Positions 8,582 to 21,183 of a DNA stretch of 64,000 nucleotides are shown here, piece by piece. Made by a program: the position numbers and the translations under genes. This DNA is from an uncultured Vicinamibacterales bacterium (lineage in GTDB: Bacteria; Acidobacteriota; Vicinamibacteria; Vicinamibacterales; UBA8438): positions 5,876,367 to 5,940,366 of the forward strand of contig OY282382.1 in the NCBI GenBank assembly GCA_958295905.1. Reading direction: 5' to 3'. Position 1 is the first letter of the stretch. Every line of letters starts with the position of its first letter. The notes below the pieces were generated by a model that worked only from the letters and a program-made list of their open reading frames with translations, searched no databases and was not told the origin of the DNA.

Positions 8582-11047
8582 CTACTCGACCTCCGCCGCG
8601 ACGCCGGCCACCCGCATCTGGAACGGCGCGCTCCGGACCACCCCGGCCACCAGGGAGGCGAGACCGTAGTCGTCCGACGCGGATCCGCGAACGATCTGCC
8701 GCACCGCCGGCGCATCGTAATGCTCGATGCCGCGGCCGAGGGCATAGGTCAGCAGCTTCTCGGTCACCACGGTGGCGAACTGCTCCCGGTTGCGCACCAG
8801 CAGCCCGCGCAGCTCGGCCGGTCCGTCGAACCCGGCGCCGTCGGGCATCGTGCCCGAGGCGTCTATCGCGCCGCCCCCGGGCATGTGCGAACGCCACCGG
8901 CCGATCGCGTCGAAGTTCTCGAGGGCCAAGCCCAGCGGGTCCATCACCCGATGACAGCTCGCGCACACCGGGTTCGCCCGGTGCTGCTCCATCCGCTCGC
9001 GCATCGCCAGGACCCGGCCCGAGTCCTCGGCCGGCTCGAGCTCGGGCACGTTCGGCGGCGGCGGGGGCGGCGGTGTCCCCAGCACGTTCTCGAGCACCCA
9101 CTTGCCGCGTCCCACCGGCGACGTGCGATCCGGATACGACGTGACGGTCAGGATGCTGCCCTGGCCCAGCAGCCCCCGGCGGTTGCCGCCGCCGAGCGAC
9201 ACCCGGCGGAAGTCGCTGCCGTAGACGCCCGGAATCCCGTAGTGCCGGGCCAGCCGCTCGTTCAGGAACGTGTGGTCGGCCGTCAGCAGGTCGGACACGC
9301 TGCGGTCCTCGCGCAGGATGCTGTCGAAGAACAGCTCCGTCTCGCGCACGAAGTCCCGGCGCAGGCTCTCGCCGAAGTCGGGGAACAGCACGTCGGAGGG
9401 CAGCGCCCCCGAGATGTTGCGCAGGCGCAGCCACTGCCCCGCGAAGTTCCTCGCCAGGGCCTCGGAACGAGGGTCGGCGAGCATCCGCCGCACCTGCTCC
9501 TCGACCACCGACGGGTCTTGCAGACCGCGCCGCTCGGCCACCTCCAGCAACTCGTCGTCGGGCAGGCTGCTCCACAGGAAGAACGAGATGCGGGACGCCA
9601 ACTCGAGGTCGTTCAGCCGATAGGGGGTGCCCGGCTCGGCTCCGGCGGGGTCGGAGACGACCCTGAACAGGAAGTCGGGGCTCACGAGCAGCGCCCGGAG
9701 CGCGCGCTCGATGCCCGCCTCGAACCCGCCGGCGAGCCGCCCTTCCTCGTAGAAGGCCACCAACGGCGCCAAGTCCCGCCCGCCGACGGGGCGGCGGTAG
9801 GCGCGGCGGGCGAGCGACGACAGGATCTGCCGGGCGCAGGGCGCCTCCTCGGCCGCGTTCGCGGGCCGGCAGACGAAGATGCGGCGGCGGGCCGGGGTGT
9901 CCTCGACGCCCGTCGCGTCGAACGGCCCGGTGATGGTGAGGGTGCCCAGATGCGGCTGATACAGCAGGTAGTCGCCCTCGCCGTGGGGGCGGTCGAACGG
10001 CTGGCGCAGGCTCTCGGCCAGCGCGTCGGTCTTCTTGATGAACGCGGCGGTCACCGTGCGCGGGCCCGCCGCGACGGGCACGCGCAGCCGCAGGTCGTCG
10101 GGCCCGGTGTTGTAGGCGGCGCCCTGGTCGCTGTCGGGGTCGACCGGGGCCAGCCGGAACACCCGCACCCGCTCGCCGTCCACGCTGACCTCGAGCTGGT
10201 GGGGCTCGCGAATCGGAGCGCCCGCGAACAGGTCGAGCAGGGCGAGCTCGATCTCGTACTCGCCGTCCCGCGGGAAGTTGTATTCCACCGACAGGCCGCC
10301 GCGGGTGCCGAACGGCAGGCCGTTCTGGTGCTGGTACTGGGAGAGGTCGGAGACGATGCGGAAGGTCTCGCCGGCCGGGGCCATCGGCGAGGCCCCCACC
10401 GCGAGCCGGCTGACGCGCCGCGCCGCGTTCATGTAGCGCTCGAGGAGGGTGGGCGACACCTTGAGCACGCCGGCGATGTTGTCGAACCCGTAGCTCTGGT
10501 CGTCGGCCGGCACGAGCGCGGCCGCGTCCACGTCGAGGGCGAGGAGGTCGCGGATGGCGTTCTGGTACTCGGTGCGGTTCAGCCGGTGCAGGGGAACCGT
10601 GCGCCCGGGGTTCGGCCGCGCCGCCGCGGCCCGGTCTATCTCGGTTTCGAGCCAAGCCGCGAGGCGGTCGGCCGCCGCCGCCGCCGGGCGCGGGCGCCCC
10701 AAAGGAGGCATGGTTCCGGTGCGGACCTTCCGGATGACCTTCTCCCAGATGTCCGCCTGCGCCGGCACGTTCTCGAGGTCGGCGCTCTCGAGCTCGACCG
10801 GGACCGTGCCGCGCTCGAGCAGGCGCTGGTTGTGGCACGTCAGGCAGTACCGTTGGAGCAGCGCCCCATGAGCGGCGATCTCGCCGGCGCGTTCTTCGAG
10901 CGGGAGCTCGGCCTCACGCGCCGCCGCCGGCTCCGGCACCTGGGCCGAACCGGTCTCGGCCAGCCCGCCCCCGGCCAACCCGACGACCATCGCGATGCCC
11001 GCGAGCCTCCGTACACGCCGTCCCGACGCCTGCTCCATGGCCTTCAT
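8582..11047 (-). CDS. DUF1592/DUF1588-type large secreted cytochrome c-like protein
   Basis: 821 residues with a signal peptide. The family domains appear in order: an N-terminal haem c site (CLTCH, residues 68-72), DUF1587 (LHRLNRTEYQNAIRDLL), DUF1595/DUF1592 (RAYRRPV, SRISFFLWSSLPDDELL), DUF1588 (RRGLLGQGSILT...RTSPVGRGKWV) and DUF1585 at the C-terminus with a second haem site (CASCH, 695-699). These proteins are common in Planctomycetes and Acidobacteria, usually beside DUF1552. Their role is not established; electron transfer coupled to polymer degradation has been proposed. Start chosen for the AGGAAGG six bases upstream. A proline run (TPPPPPPPN) lies in the DUF1588 region. Confidence 0.88.
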   Translation of the reverse strand: MKAMEQASGRRVRRLAGIAMVVGLAGGGLAETGSAQVPEPAAAREAELPLEERAGEIAAHGALLQRYCLTCHNQRLLERGTVPVELESADLENVPAQADIWEKVIRKVRTGTMPPLGRPRPAAAAADRLAAWLETEIDRAAAARPNPGRTVPLHRLNRTEYQNAIRDLLALDVDAAALVPADDQSYGFDNIAGVLKVSPTLLERYMNAARRVSRLAVGASPMAPAGETFRIVSDLSQYQHQNGLPFGTRGGLSVEYNFPRDGEYEIELALLDLFAGAPIREPHQLEVSVDGERVRVFRLAPVDPDSDQGAAYNTGPDDLRLRVPVAAGPRTVTAAFIKKTDALAESLRQPFDRPHGEGDYLLYQPHLGTLTITGPFDATGVEDTPARRRIFVCRPANAAEEAPCARQILSSLARRAYRRPVGGRDLAPLVAFYEEGRLAGGFEAGIERALRALLVSPDFLFRVVSDPAGAEPGTPYRLNDLELASRISFFLWSSLPDDELLEVAERRGLQDPSVVEEQVRRMLADPRSEALARNFAGQWLRLRNISGALPSDVLFPDFGESLRRDFVRETELFFDSILREDRSVSDLLTADHTFLNERLARHYGIPGVYGSDFRRVSLGGGNRRGLLGQGSILTVTSYPDRTSPVGRGKWVLENVLGTPPPPPPPNVPELEPAEDSGRVLAMRERMEQHRANPVCASCHRVMDPLGLALENFDAIGRWRSHMPGGGAIDASGTMPDGAGFDGPAELRGLLVRNREQFATVVTEKLLTYALGRGIEHYDAPAVRQIVRGSASDDYGLASLVAGVVRSAPFQMRVAGVAAEVE

Positions 11048-11129
11048 ACTGCGCCTTCCTGGAACACGGAAACCGATCTTGCGATCCTACAGCTTCCGCC
11101 CGTCGTGTCAACCGGCGGTCACTCCGCCC

Positions 11130-11301
11130 CAGGACCATCCCACGCGCCGCCACCGCCGGCACAGGCAGCATCGTGGCGGGTCCTGAGCTCCGGACGGGCG
11201 GAATCGCGGGTCTCACGCGGCGCCGGCCGGCCGGCAAGACGGTGGCGACCCCTCGAATCGGGGGGCGGGCCGTCACCCGCAGTCAGCGTGGGATGCCCCT
11301 G
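11130..11301 (+). mobile_element. 172-bp inverted-repeat element, copy 1
   Basis: Begins CAGGACCATCCCACGC and ends GCGTGGGATGCCCCTG, giving imperfect 16-bp terminal inverted repeats. The interior matches 45954-46125 in reverse orientation, including GCAGCATCGTGGCGGGTCCT and AAGACGGTGGCGACCCCTCG. Both copies are 172 bp. ACTCCG occurs just after the right end and 3 bp before the left end, so a target duplication is possible but not clean. No coding capacity. Confidence 0.78.
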
Positions 11302-11335
11302 ACTCCGATACTACGAGGAATGATATGCTGGCGGC

Positions 11336-11545
11336 ATGGATCCCGACTGGCTGACACTCGGCGCGGTCGTGGCCGTCGGCGGCCTGTTGCGGCGCGCGCT
11401 GGGTACGCGCATCGATGACGTCGGCCGCCGCCTCGACACCTTGGCCGCCGACGTGAAGAGTCTGGACCGCCGAGTGGCGCGACTCGCGGGTTGGCTCGAG
11501 CGAGACCGCCTGGGTGCGGCAACGGGCGACGGAGCCATGCCGTGA
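11336..11545 (+). CDS. Small putative membrane-anchored coiled-coil protein
   Basis: 69 residues. A short hydrophobic N-terminus (WLTLGAVVAVGGLL) is followed by an amphipathic helix with regular leucine/valine spacing (DDVGRRLDTLAADVKSLDRR), as in short bacterial coiled-coil proteins. No family recognised. TATGCT lies 6 nt before the ATG, so the mRNA could be leaderless; a GAGGAA further upstream is badly spaced for a ribosome site. It lies just right of the 172-bp element and 130 bp before the ankyrin gene. It could also be a chance frame. Confidence 0.45.
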   Translation: MDPDWLTLGAVVAVGGLLRRALGTRIDDVGRRLDTLAADVKSLDRRVARLAGWLERDRLGAATGDGAMP

Positions 11546-11675
11546 TGGGACCCCCCTGCTGCCGTGAGGAGCGCCCGCCGGTGGAGCCTGGAGACACCAC
11601 CGGCATCGGCCGCGGCGGGAAGATGATTTAAGTACGTCGTGATGAAGCGCCCGGCGGTGGCGCCTGGAGACACAG

Positions 11676-15567: not shown

Positions 15568-15890
15568 GTCACTCCTTGTCTCCGACGGCGTTCCGGGGGC
15601 CGGTTTCCCGGGAGCGGCGGCGAAAGCCCCGCTCCAACCGACCGGCGATGCATCACGCGTGAAGCGCTCCCCGGTTGCCCCCCTCGTCGCGCCTGCCACG
15701 CAGGCGCCTCGATCGGATGTCTCCCGTGTTCCGCCCCCTGCGGCCGCGGCGGCCGCGGCGGCTCCAAGCCTTATCCGCGGTCAGTGCACCGCCGTCAGGC
15801 AGTGTACGGCGAAGCCGATAATCACCACCGTCAAGCCGATGATCTCGACCGTCTGCGTTCCTTGCTAAATCGCCCCGCCCGCCCCCGGCT
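15568..15890. other. Intergenic region with no supported gene
   Basis: 323 bp between two minus-strand genes. It contains a GATGCATC-type palindromic repeat related to sequences near 57540 and 58610. A short hydrophobic frame near 15785-15865 lacks a start codon. Nothing else is supported. Confidence 0.5.
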
Positions 15891-16868
15891 TCAGTGCCGG
15901 GTTCCGGCGGTACGCCAGTGCCCGCACCGCCGGCTCAGCCGTGCGCCCGGTCGTTGACCGCAGTCGACGCGGTCTCCGCCTTTCAGCCGATCCATGCCGT
16001 CCGCTTCGGCGGCGTTGCGCAGGTACGGCGTTACGCTCATCCGCTCCGCGGCCAGTTCGACCTCTCCGGGGGTCCGCGCGGACATCGCTGCGCTCCGCCT
16101 TGTTCCATCGCTCCGCACCGCTTCCATTTCCACGCTTGTTCCGTCCCACTGCACGGTTATTCCGCGGTACTGGGCCGCGAGCAGCGCGCCGACGCCCCGT
16201 GCCGCCGGGTCGGCCGCCAGCGCTTGGAACTCCGGCGCGACGTCCTCCAGCGTTGTTCGCGCGAGGTCGGCGTGCCCCGCCGCGTCGTTGAGGGCGTACC
16301 CGGCTTGAAGCGCGACTGCGCGCGGGTGCTCCCGGTTCACCGCTTTTTCCAGCGCCCAGGGGTCGATCTCGCCGGCGACTGCGAAGTCGAAGAGATCGCG
16401 CGTCGGCGCTCTCGCCAGTCTCCCGGCGATTTTGCCGTGCAGGATCTGCTCTGCGGTCTGAATCCGGGTCGGCCGCCCGTGGACGGCGGCGGTGTATTCG
16501 GCTCCTTCCGGCATCGGTGCGCTTTCGAAGATGTCGATCTTCCCTTGGGGGAACCGGATCGATGCCCCGATCCCGGAGGTCCGTATTTCGACCGCCCCCG
16601 CTTTCTCCCACGCCCGCTTGATTTGCGGCGGCGGTTCGATCCATGTCCGCCGTTCACCGATCCCGGGCGGTACGGCGATGTCGATGTCGCTGCTCCGTCG
16701 GTGGCGCCATCGGGCCGCGAGGATCGTCCCGCCGCCGATGCTCCACGACCCGGGGCTCCCCCCGGTCATCCACTCGACGGTTTCCGGTGCGAGGATCGCG
16801 CTGCCGGCGTGGCTCCACAGCGTGTCGGCGGGTTCGGGCAGCTGGATACCCGGCGCTTGGGCGGTCAC
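15891..16868 (-). CDS. AbiEii/AbiGii-like nucleotidyltransferase (putative toxin)
   Basis: 325 residues. Residues about 43-65 read SIGGGTILAARWRHRRSSDI then DIAV, the glycine-rich and Sx(D)xD catalytic signature of DNA polymerase beta-type nucleotidyltransferases of the AbiEii type. A later KIAGRLARAPTRDLFDFAVA matches the second conserved helix (K...R..RDlyD). AbiEii-family toxins transfer nucleotides to RNA or other substrates and act in phage abortive infection. The GTG start overlaps the stop of the upstream gene by 4 nt (GTGA), so translation is coupled. The usual AbiEi winged-helix antitoxin is absent; an unfamiliar 151-residue protein is in its place. The GC at third positions looks lower than in neighbouring housekeeping genes, suggesting transfer. 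Confidence 0.68.
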   Translation of the reverse strand: MTAQAPGIQLPEPADTLWSHAGSAILAPETVEWMTGGSPGSWSIGGGTILAARWRHRRSSDIDIAVPPGIGERRTWIEPPPQIKRAWEKAGAVEIRTSGIGASIRFPQGKIDIFESAPMPEGAEYTAAVHGRPTRIQTAEQILHGKIAGRLARAPTRDLFDFAVAGEIDPWALEKAVNREHPRAVALQAGYALNDAAGHADLARTTLEDVAPEFQALAADPAARGVGALLAAQYRGITVQWDGTSVEMEAVRSDGTRRSAAMSARTPGEVELAAERMSVTPYLRNAAEADGMDRLKGGDRVDCGQRPGARLSRRCGHWRTAGTRH

Positions 16869-17320
16869 GGTTTCCACCGTATCGGGTAGCTGTCGGGGGG
16901 TACCAGCGCCGGTTTCTCGGCGTAGGTGTTGAGCAGGCGGTATTGCCGGTACCCGGAGAGTCCGAAGCGTCCCATCGCGGCGGCCAGCATCCGCCAGCTG
17001 TACGCTTGTTGCGCCCACGCTTCGAGTTTCTCCTCGAAGCTCGACTCCATCAGCCAAGCCGTTACCGCGAGCCGGCGGCGGCCCGCGGGTTCGGCCTCCC
17101 GCAGCCCGTCGTAGATCTCCTTCGCGGTCGGCGGGTCGCTGTACCCGCACATGCGCCTTCCGATGACGAAGTCGAGCGCGGCGGCCCGTTCGCCGATCCA
17201 TGCGGGGTCCGCGCCGGGGTTGACGAGCGCCGCGAGTCCGTCCGGGGCGAGCCGCGGGCTGAACGCCTCGGGCGGGGCGAGGGCGCACGCCGTGTCGTCG
17301 TAGCAGTAGATGACCTGCAT
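16865..17320 (-). CDS. Unknown protein in AbiEii-like operon
   Basis: 151 residues; I do not recognise the family. It begins MQVIYCYDDTACALAPPEAF, has a middle helix-rich part (WIGERAAALDFVIGRR, ESSFEEKLEAWAQQAYSW) and ends SYPIRWKP. It has no signal peptide or membrane segment. The 4-nt overlap with the nucleotidyltransferase and the 15-nt gap to the small upstream gene indicate one operon. By position it is the candidate antitoxin or regulator. It does not look like the winged-helix AbiEi. No good ribosome site is visible (ACAACA before ATG), so translation may depend on the upstream frame. Confidence 0.6.
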   Translation of the reverse strand: MQVIYCYDDTACALAPPEAFSPRLAPDGLAALVNPGADPAWIGERAAALDFVIGRRMCGYSDPPTAKEIYDGLREAEPAGRRRLAVTAWLMESSFEEKLEAWAQQAYSWRMLAAAMGRFGLSGYRQYRLLNTYAEKPALVPPDSYPIRWKP

Positions 17321-17335
17321 TGTTGTTTTGCGCGC

Positions 17336-17488
17336 TTAGCCCGCCAACGGCAGTGACTCTTGCGGGAACTTGATCGCTTTCAGCGTTTCAGGATCGCTGT
17401 CGCCGAGGATTGCGTGGTTGGCGGCGACCGCCCCCGACAGATCGTCGCAGCACGCCGTTTCGCCGCGGGCTCCCGCCCAAACCGTCAT
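17336..17488 (-). CDS. Small unknown protein, first gene of AbiEii-like operon
   Basis: 50 residues, MTVWAGARGETACCDDLSGA at the start and LKAIKFPQESLPLAG at the end. The family is not recognised. It ends 15 nt before the next gene and runs the same way. The start is uncertain: the frame stays open to 17647, but that extra part runs through repeat-like sequence. It may be a small regulator, or the remnant 3' end of a longer gene cut by repeat insertion. Confidence 0.4.
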   Translation of the reverse strand: MTVWAGARGETACCDDLSGAVAANHAILGDSDPETLKAIKFPQESLPLAG

Positions 17489-17668
17489 GATCGGCCGACG
17501 CCGATCACCCCGACGCCGCGAAACGTCGGGAACATGCATCCCAGCAATAGGCGGCTGGGAGTCTGCGCCGCAGGAAATTCTGACCACCATATGTCGCGCA
17601 AACGCCGGCGACTGACCGCCACAATGATGGTGGCAGATCGGACCCAAACTGTTCTGCGGCGCCGACGC

Positions 17669-17790
17669 CCGTCACGTCATAAGTTTCGGACAGACAGTCT
17701 TGGGTCGAACGACGTATTGCTTCCGCATAGGACTCTTGCGGTTCGAGGTGAGTGCCCCGGCGACCCTATTTTTAGTCGTGGCGATGCACT
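17669..17790 (+). repeat. 122-bp dispersed repeat, copy B
   Basis: Matches copy A (2067-2189, opposite strand) over its whole length. Its right end overlaps the last bases of the frc stop codon, so it sits directly at the 3' end of that gene. A GGACTC/GAGTGCC pairing is only partly conserved relative to copy A. Confidence 0.8.
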
Positions 17791-19033: not shown

Positions 19034-19477
19034 GGATTCTCCGTGGACTTGACGGCCGGCGGCACTCGCCGGCGGCATGCCGACTCGACGTTCTCAAGCA
19101 CCCGGCCGGTACCGCCGCCCCCCAACCCGCCGGTGGAGGGCGGCCAACCGCCGCAAACTGTACATTATCGCATCTGTGACGCGCTCGCGTCCGGCCATCC
19201 GGAGCCCGAGGGCGGACGGCGGGAACGTCGACACCGATGCCCTCCCCGGCCCCCGCCCATGCAGGCCGGCAGCGGCGCCGGACCGGGCAGGCGCCCGGCA
19301 CGAGACCGGCGCCGGCAGGGTCGCCCGCGGAGGCCGGCGGGGCAACGCCGGGGACGCTGTCGACGCTGTCGACAGCGGGTTGCGGAGCCGGCGGTCGACA
19401 GCGTGACGAGACCGGCTCAGCCCATCGCCCGACACGGCGCACGGGTTGCCCGCCGCGCGTCTTCGTTCACCGAGCGT
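19034..19477. other. Gene-free region with GTCGAC palindromes
   Basis: 444 bp with no supported gene. Around 19355-19410 there are clustered palindromes (CTGTCGAC, GCTGTCGACAGC, GGTCGACAGCG) that could be protein-binding sites or just local duplication. Confidence 0.4.
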
Positions 19478-20620
19478 TCACGGGTCGTTGCCGTCCATCA
19501 CCGTCAGATCGCGTGGATTCGACAAGTGCCAGCGTTGCCCTTCACGGCGCAGGTCGCCTTCGAGCGACACGCTCCACCGGTGGTCGTGCGCTCTGGTGAT
19601 CTCGCTGTATTCGGAGGGGCTGAAGTCCGCCTTGACCGACGTCAATGCGCCGTCGATTACCGCCTTGATGGTCGCCCGACCTTCAGGTTCGGATTGGTCA
19701 CGGACAAGGGAGGACACGTACCCTTCAATGCGCTCATCGACCCGTTCATCCCGGCCGCCCAGAATCCGCGCCGCCTCGCTGAGCACCTGGGCGTCCGGCA
19801 GATGGAAGATCACGGTCGAGCGCTGCTCGTCGTGTTCCTCGCTCGGGGGTCGCGTCAGCGCCCAACTGACGGAGACTTCCAGGCCGCCGCCGATGGCGAT
19901 CAGCTCGGCGGCGGCCGTGCAGAGATTCGCACTCACGCCATTCTGGACCCGCGCGTCGAAGGCCCAGATATCCCCCTCCCCGCGATTGACCAAGTCCGTG
20001 GCCTCGCGCACCGCCCGAAGCCCGGCAACCAGCGTGCGGTTGGCGCGTCGCTCGAAGGGGGGCTCGAACAGGTGGGTCTGATCCGGCTCCGCCAAGGCTG
20101 GAGAAACGGGGACCCGGAGGTTGACGATGAAGCTGCCCGGCTCGGTCTGTCCCAACCGGACGCTGGAGATGTAAGCGGACGCCCGTTCGTTACGCCCGGC
20201 ACGGAACTGGCGTCGCGGGCGCACCGTTGAGCAGGCTGCGGCGAGTAGCAGCCTGCGAGAGCCGGCAAGCAGGTCGACGCCGGCATCGAGCGCGAGCGAG
20301 TGGTCGTCGTGCGCTCTGGGCAGGCGGACGCGTATCAGGTCCACGGCGGCCAGCGACAGGTCGGCGAGAACCGCGGAGGGGCGGCGGTCCTCCGTCCGTC
20401 CGACGACTTCCGCAAGCTGGAGGATGCGGACCGGGTAGTCCGCGAACCGGGTGGATGCGGGAACGAGGACCGTCCCGCGGTCATCGGGCCGCCGGTATAC
20501 ATCGCCCCGGTCGACACGGTAGGGGCCCGTCCTCGTCCACCCATGCGCAGCCAGATAGGCATGCACGCCGAGCGGGGTAACGGTCTCCGCCACTGCGCTC
20601 CCGGTGGAATCGTCATTCAT
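19478..20620 (-). CDS. Unknown protein coupled to DUF4365 nuclease-like gene
   Basis: 380 residues, soluble, no signal peptide. I cannot name a domain, but the protein has well-formed blocks seen in a recurring uncharacterised family: LPRAHDDHSLALDAGVDLL, VRLGQTEPGSFIVNLRVPV, ARVQNGVSANLCTAAAELI, and a C-terminal SEITRAHDHRWSVSLEGDLR. The ATG lies 4 nt after the stop of the DUF4365 gene, and GCGAGGATAG, overlapping that stop codon, supplies the ribosome site, so the two are translated together. Position beside a nuclease-like gene and accessory DNA suggests a defence or DNA-processing role; this is inference. Confidence 0.72.
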   Translation of the reverse strand: MNDDSTGSAVAETVTPLGVHAYLAAHGWTRTGPYRVDRGDVYRRPDDRGTVLVPASTRFADYPVRILQLAEVVGRTEDRRPSAVLADLSLAAVDLIRVRLPRAHDDHSLALDAGVDLLAGSRRLLLAAACSTVRPRRQFRAGRNERASAYISSVRLGQTEPGSFIVNLRVPVSPALAEPDQTHLFEPPFERRANRTLVAGLRAVREATDLVNRGEGDIWAFDARVQNGVSANLCTAAAELIAIGGGLEVSVSWALTRPPSEEHDEQRSTVIFHLPDAQVLSEAARILGGRDERVDERIEGYVSSLVRDQSEPEGRATIKAVIDGALTSVKADFSPSEYSEITRAHDHRWSVSLEGDLRREGQRWHLSNPRDLTVMDGNDP

Positions 20621-20624
20621 GCGT

Positions 20625-21110
20625 CTATCCTCGCGCTACCGTCATCAGCGGCGCCAAACCAGACGTCCCGATGCGCTGCTCCTCCGGAATGACAATCGTC
20701 TTCGACTCCCCTTCCGTCGGGTCGCGCCCCGACAACGATATCCACCAGCCGCGGCGCCGCACCACCGTGTGTTCGAGCGTGCACTCCAGCCAGTCGGCAT
20801 CCGCCGGCGGCAGTTCGAGCACGATCAGCATGAGCGGCGTCATGCGGTCGGCGACGAGGTCGTTATGGTTCTTCCTCGACAGCCTGAAGCGCAGACCCTC
20901 CGTCCCCCGGCTGGGCACCGACGTCGCCTTGAGCTGGACGTCGAACTGCGTGCCGCTTGCATCACCCGATCGGATCGTGGCATCGACGCTCGCGAGATCG
21001 GGCTGTGGGCCCCGTTGACAGGTGTATCCCGCGTAGGCGGCGAGCGCGGCGAGGTAAGCGAACGACAGCTCGGCCTTACGATCGTTGTCGGTCAGGATGG
21101 CGTCATCCAT
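20625..21110 (-). CDS. DUF4365 domain protein (PD-(D/E)xK nuclease-like fold)
   Basis: 161 residues from the chosen ATG. The whole protein is one DUF4365 domain: KAELSFAYLAALAAYAGYTC (conserved Glu), PQPDLASVDATI (conserved Asp) and FDVQLKATS (the QxK element), followed by PLMLIVLELP. This spacing is that of restriction-endonuclease-like folds. Nuclease activity is predicted from fold, not shown. An in-frame ATG at 21161 and a TTG at 21182 could lengthen the N-terminus; the domain starts at 21110. It lies 73 bp after the phosphotriesterase-like gene and is coupled to the 380-residue partner. Confidence 0.78.
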   Translation of the reverse strand: MDDAILTDNDRKAELSFAYLAALAAYAGYTCQRGPQPDLASVDATIRSGDASGTQFDVQLKATSVPSRGTEGLRFRLSRKNHNDLVADRMTPLMLIVLELPPADADWLECTLEHTVVRRRGWWISLSGRDPTEGESKTIVIPEEQRIGTSGLAPLMTVARG

Positions 21111-21183
21111 CGGCGGCGAATTCCCGGCTTCAGCCTCCGCAACGTGCCAGTCTCCTGGCATTTCGTAAGCGGCTCTCGGCAAC

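Follow-up and report, generated by a model that had tools for sequence, protein, structure and literature searches.

What does a small nuclease-like protein do when its gene runs almost directly into that of a larger partner? We analysed such a pair, here called M02A and M02B, in a 64,000-nucleotide stretch of DNA from an uncultured Vicinamibacterales bacterium (the window; Table 1). Both open reading frames described by an earlier sequence-only reading, of 161 and 380 amino acids with the partner starting 4 nt after the M02A stop, were recovered on the minus strand, and a run resembling a ribosome site (GCGCGAGGATAGACGCATG on the reverse strand) touches the M02A stop codon, as had been proposed. 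Measured against the nearest homologous locus, L010, dN/dS was 0.26 for M02A and 0.21 for M02B; because both genes are under purifying selection in this comparison, we do not regard either as a chance reading frame. Searches around the pair yielded neither a sigma-70-like promoter nor an Rfam RNA, and the terminator-like matches there fall inside a gene.

Table 1. Features of the M02A–M02B locus (positions are those of the window).
Feature	Position	Strand	Evidence
M02A, 161-aa DUF4365 (DREN-type PD-(D/E)xK) predicted nuclease gene	20625..21110	-	ATG at 21110; Pfam PF14280 2e-15; PADLOC PDC-M02A 6.9e-40; model pLDDT 83.8; PDB matches to SPARDA DREN domain
M02B, 380-aa partner, PDC-M02B	19478..20620	-	PADLOC PDC-M02B 5.2e-112; model pLDDT 84.9, pTM 0.71
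Junction of the coupled genes: TAG stop of M02A and 4-nt gap, with an AGGA resembling a ribosome site just upstream	20621..20627	-	Direct reading
Catalytic-motif codons D38, D43, Q59, K61 of M02A	20928..20999	-	Invariant in 27/27 pairs; counterparts catalytic in SPARDA and needed for EAT16 toxicity
GQTEPGSF block codons of M02B (residues 157-164)	20129..20152	-	Conserved in alignments A1 and A3
Predicted C-terminal OB-fold domain of M02B (residues 291-380)	19481..19750	-	Foldseek and VIA matches; PDC-M02B profile versus DnaE OB region
Segment missing at the same place in same-genus genome G208	19176..21182		Synteny stops at 19175 and restarts at 21183

The pair is not new: judged by its profile matches, it is an additional member of PDC-M02, a candidate family already catalogued in PADLOC. 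The matches extend over essentially the full length of both proteins (residues 6-159 of M02A and 1-376 of M02B), the gene order is identical, and nothing was found that sets the window pair apart from the family. PDC candidates reportedly stem from work by the PADLOC group on defences nested within other defence loci, a preprint that PMC12255303 cites. Only PDC-M02 models were among the PADLOC matches listed for the two window proteins, so under this library the pair belongs to no other named system. PDC stands for ‘phage defence candidate’ (PMC11514479). Our literature search found no paper naming PDC-M02 and no functional study or measured activity, and an NCBIfam search of the pair gave no match. 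The partner was earlier described as having no known function, and that remains true; the pair was nonetheless already in PADLOC, and the C-terminal quarter of the partner is predicted to be an OB fold.

We strongly expect M02A to be an active nuclease, given its predicted fold and its invariant residues, which have counterparts in SPARDA, TmuRE and EAT16. Pfam DUF4365 scored 57.5 bits against a cut-off of 24.3 bits over residues 14-158, and the structure model (pTM 0.80) had the DREN domain of SPARDA as its best match in both Foldseek (PDB 9qcc, 1.4e-6) and VIA (9vx6_P, Z 14.0, 134 aligned residues, 2.7 Å), followed by Hjc resolvases (Z 11.0) and with RecU also among the structural matches. 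A PDB sequence search with either family profile, M02A or M02B, returned nothing meaningful. The previous assignment of the DUF4365 protein to the PD-(D/E)xK nucleases is thus supported by Pfam, by the predicted fold and by the invariant catalytic residues; a fold lacking a nuclease site, which had been named as the outcome that would speak against it, did not occur, as the model fits SPARDA DREN with the catalytic residues present.

D38, D43, Q59 and K61, all invariant in an alignment of 27 pairs, align with catalytic D41, Q60 and K62 of NbaSPARDA, in which D41 and Q60 hold the metal and activity is abolished by D41A and Q60A and impaired by K62A (PMC12205087). In TmuRE the counterparts of the catalytic Q and K are Q62 and K64 (PMC10810196), and in EAT16, whose motif is D42, D46, Q66 and K68, killing is lost on mutating three of the four (PMC11297309). 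The E...D...QxK pattern first read from the window stands at D43, Q59 and K61, but its E varies (Glu occupies column 13 in 20 of the 27 pairs; the window protein has Ala there and Glu at position 14), and it did not include the invariant D38. The isolated DREN domain of NbaSPARDA showed no detectable activity until tetramerised (PMC12205087).

M02B is predicted to carry, at residues 291-380, an OB fold like those of SSB, PriB, RPA and DnaE. Foldseek placed the OB region of PolC first for this segment (9.4e-4), then SSB, RPA and PriB, and VIA gave Z scores of about 8 to SSB, PriB and RPA, with some OB proteins that do not bind DNA also in the match list. Independent support comes from sequence: positions 287-361 of the PDC-M02B profile matched a long open reading frame in several genomes, read as DnaE, at its OB domain. 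The OB domain of M02B has a pI of 5.0, an acidity not typical of surfaces that bind DNA, which counts against the defence module favoured below. For residues 1-290 there was no Foldseek or VIA match in the whole-protein searches, whose lists were filled by OB-domain matches. One structural match spanning the whole of M02B was a Leptospira phage LE1 protein (2.1e-22), which is the M02B member of that phage's own DUF4365 pair. Pfam found nothing credible in M02B, a CbbQ_C match (E 0.14) being taken as chance. Two patterned blocks had been singled out in the partner. GQTEPGSF proved to be conserved (G157 in at least 90%, with T159, G162 and S163 invariant, in both alignments), lies within residues 1-290 and takes the general form GQTxxGSF, whereas GVSANLC (residues 228-234) is conserved in only part of the family.

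The coupling of the two genes, proposed from the window, extends to relatives of the pair, where an obligate association is supported. Across a 199-genome sample of the phylum, every M02A locus (7/7) lay directly upstream of M02B and seven of nine M02B loci had an M02A, most of the exceptions found carrying a broken one; a partner occurring mostly without DUF4365 was therefore not what we observed. The remaining DUF4365 loci of the phylum sample fall into different DUF4365 groups, and none had an M02B match close by. The M02A–M02B order is unchanged on plasmids and viral contigs, and the spacing in 27 complete pairs ranges from -8 to +5 nt, most commonly a -4 ATGA overlap. Distance matrices of the two proteins were correlated across these 27 pairs (r 0.82, 0/5000 permutations as high, shared ancestry of the hosts being uncontrolled). 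Distribution is patchy: the pair occurs in 7 of 396 genomes of the phylum and, more widely, in Acidobacteria-like genomes, Alphaproteobacteria, Actinomycetota, Spirochaetota, Bdellovibrionota and temperate phages.

M02B also outlasts its neighbour, persisting with M02A broken or gone in four independent cases, two of them with IS-like or transposase insertions. Upstream of the orphan M02B genes of G184 and G367 only the C-terminus of M02A is left, and dN/dS between these two species’ orphans is 0.24, from only 10 changes. Plasmid AP029160 (L031 4300-5004) has a transposase gene and a C-terminal stub of M02A, and at L039 3000-5000 M02A is split by an IS-like insert, M02B being otherwise intact in both. 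Losing the nuclease while keeping the partner is consistent with a costly effector and also leaves a toxin–antitoxin reading available.

M02A–M02B is a mobile cassette, since homology to L010 is limited to the two genes and the site is empty in G208. The L010 locus, from an Acidobacteria MAG, encodes proteins 79-80% identical to those of the window pair, and its alignment with the window is confined to 19463-21113, covering the two genes but none of the sequence beside them. In G208 the CoA-transferase and phosphotriesterase-like genes that flank the cassette in the window are direct neighbours, separated by about 350 bp in which there is no cassette. GC3 of the pair is 0.81-0.83, against 0.89-0.95 for most neighbours.

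As separate observations on the same region, a second segment (window 15597-17788) is missing from the same place in G208, where its flanks lie about 250 bp apart. It holds open reading frames at 15891-17288 and 16865-17320 (-); part of it resembles an AbiEii-type nucleotidyltransferase by eye, with no Pfam match for either frame and no PADLOC match for the two frames tested there. Upstream of the CoA-transferase gene, 21 nt (window 19155-19175) are identical in G208 amid diverged intergenic DNA and are perhaps the promoter of that gene or an operator.

The flanks of the window site are metabolic and do not form a defence island, which counts against a defence module. Elsewhere, defence genes stand near individual loci, tallied without a random-gene control: the paired copy in G184 directly adjoins a DISARM cluster of DrmB, DrmA and DrmMI (L052 10531-17988), and single relatives lie near cas3, near three DUF262 genes and an Abi gene, and near a type IIG restriction gene and PDC-S02. 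A second M02B in the window genome (374 aa; L050, G000:C1:1895000-1914000, at 10543-11667) is an orphan without any trace of DUF4365; its cluster also contains type I restriction genes, an E1-E2 protein, a ClpP-like SDH-type proteinase domain and a HEC-01A-like ATPase. Searching a phage collection with the window M02B gave no match; a spirochaete homologue used as the query reached Leptospira phage LE1 and Mycobacterium abscessus prophages. LE1 carries the pair (L065 3432-5110) beside a type IIG restriction-methylation gene, and M. abscessus prophage prophi102-2 carries it at the very start of its record (L066 398-2160).

Given the PDC-M02 matches, the SPARDA-like fold, the invariant catalytic residues, the OB fold, the correlated distances (r 0.82), the defence neighbours, the carriage by temperate phages, the empty site and the cassette-sized homology, we favour, with a probability of roughly 0.6, the view that the two genes form a mobile module directed against phages or plasmids, with the OB-fold protein M02B restraining and then activating the DREN-type nuclease M02A. 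M02A would be the effector, a metal-dependent nuclease of DNA and perhaps also of RNA. Through its OB fold M02B would detect a nucleic-acid sign of infection, in the simplest case single-stranded or branched DNA, and the remainder of M02B would keep M02A switched off until this trigger binds. That event would then assemble M02A into an active oligomer, and degradation of nucleic acid by that oligomer would clear the invader or stop the cell. We infer the defence activity, the trigger, the restraint by M02B and the assembly of M02A; for the control of assembly by M02B we favour an analogy with DREN activation in SPARDA. Because the residues are named and the two-gene unit is coupled, the defence claim is directly testable.

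The likeness to SPARDA consists in the same nuclease fold and catalytic residues and in the pairing of an effector nuclease with a partner that handles nucleic acid. However, the window pair encodes a separate 161-aa nuclease and an OB-fold partner, with no Argonaute and no APAZ fusion, and we therefore rejected membership in SPARDA: DUF4365 fills M02A, M02B had no Argonaute-family match in Pfam, PADLOC or a further search, and the neighbours are the CoA-transferase and phosphotriesterase-like genes. A more specific proposal, possible but doubtful, is that the pair is a guide-free relative of SPARDA, a collateral DREN switched on through active DREN tetramers by an OB-fold sensor of a phage DNA structure or of a phage single-strand-binding product, in place of a sequence matched by a guide. 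DREN/DUF4365 has been proven to act as a collateral nuclease and is at present understood only under the control of an Argonaute and its guide; the widespread M02 pair would offer a second, guide-free control. EAT16, an eCIS-associated toxin, likewise has a DUF4365 domain with a D...D...QxK motif needed for killing (PMC11297309), but it is a single two-domain injected protein, whereas the window pair looks like an intracellular two-gene unit.

The asymmetric loss of the two genes bears on an addiction pair resembling a toxin–antitoxin system, with M02A as toxic nuclease and M02B as neutraliser, kept on mobile DNA by addiction and not by phage sensing. M02A always has M02B beside it (7/7) while M02B survives M02A decay in the four cases described, orphan M02B appears constrained between two species (on its 10 changes), a DUF4365 protein, EAT16, is toxic by itself in bacteria (PMC11297309), and M02 is found on plasmids and phages, all of which would suit addiction. 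We nevertheless consider it unlikely: the counts behind it are small, antitoxins are not usually large partners encoded after the toxin, the predicted OB fold of M02B is of nucleic-acid type, and, as the NbaSPARDA DREN domain is inactive when isolated (PMC12205087), restraint of M02A may not be needed.

Restriction of a Type IV-like kind, with M02B as the reader of foreign DNA that is modified or structured and M02A as the enzyme cutting this DNA directly and without cell death, appears distinctly improbable. The fold of M02A is related to restriction and Hjc-type endonucleases, the pair has no methyltransferase and M02 often adjoins restriction systems; yet neither Pfam nor the further search found a known modified-base reader domain in M02B, and the DREN relatives studied to date cut nonspecifically (PMC10810196, PMC12205087). 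Very improbable, in our judgement, is a pair that serves everyday DNA recombination, for instance a resolvase and its OB-fold helper, and has no part in defence. The Hjc and RecU matches of M02A (the former sharing its nuclease fold) and the resemblance of M02B to PriB and SSB OB folds would agree with it. Set against these are a partner other than that of Hjc-type Holliday junction resolvases, a patchy and mobile distribution in 7 of 396 genomes, the company of defence genes, and a structural match of M02A to Hjc that is weaker than its best match, to SPARDA.
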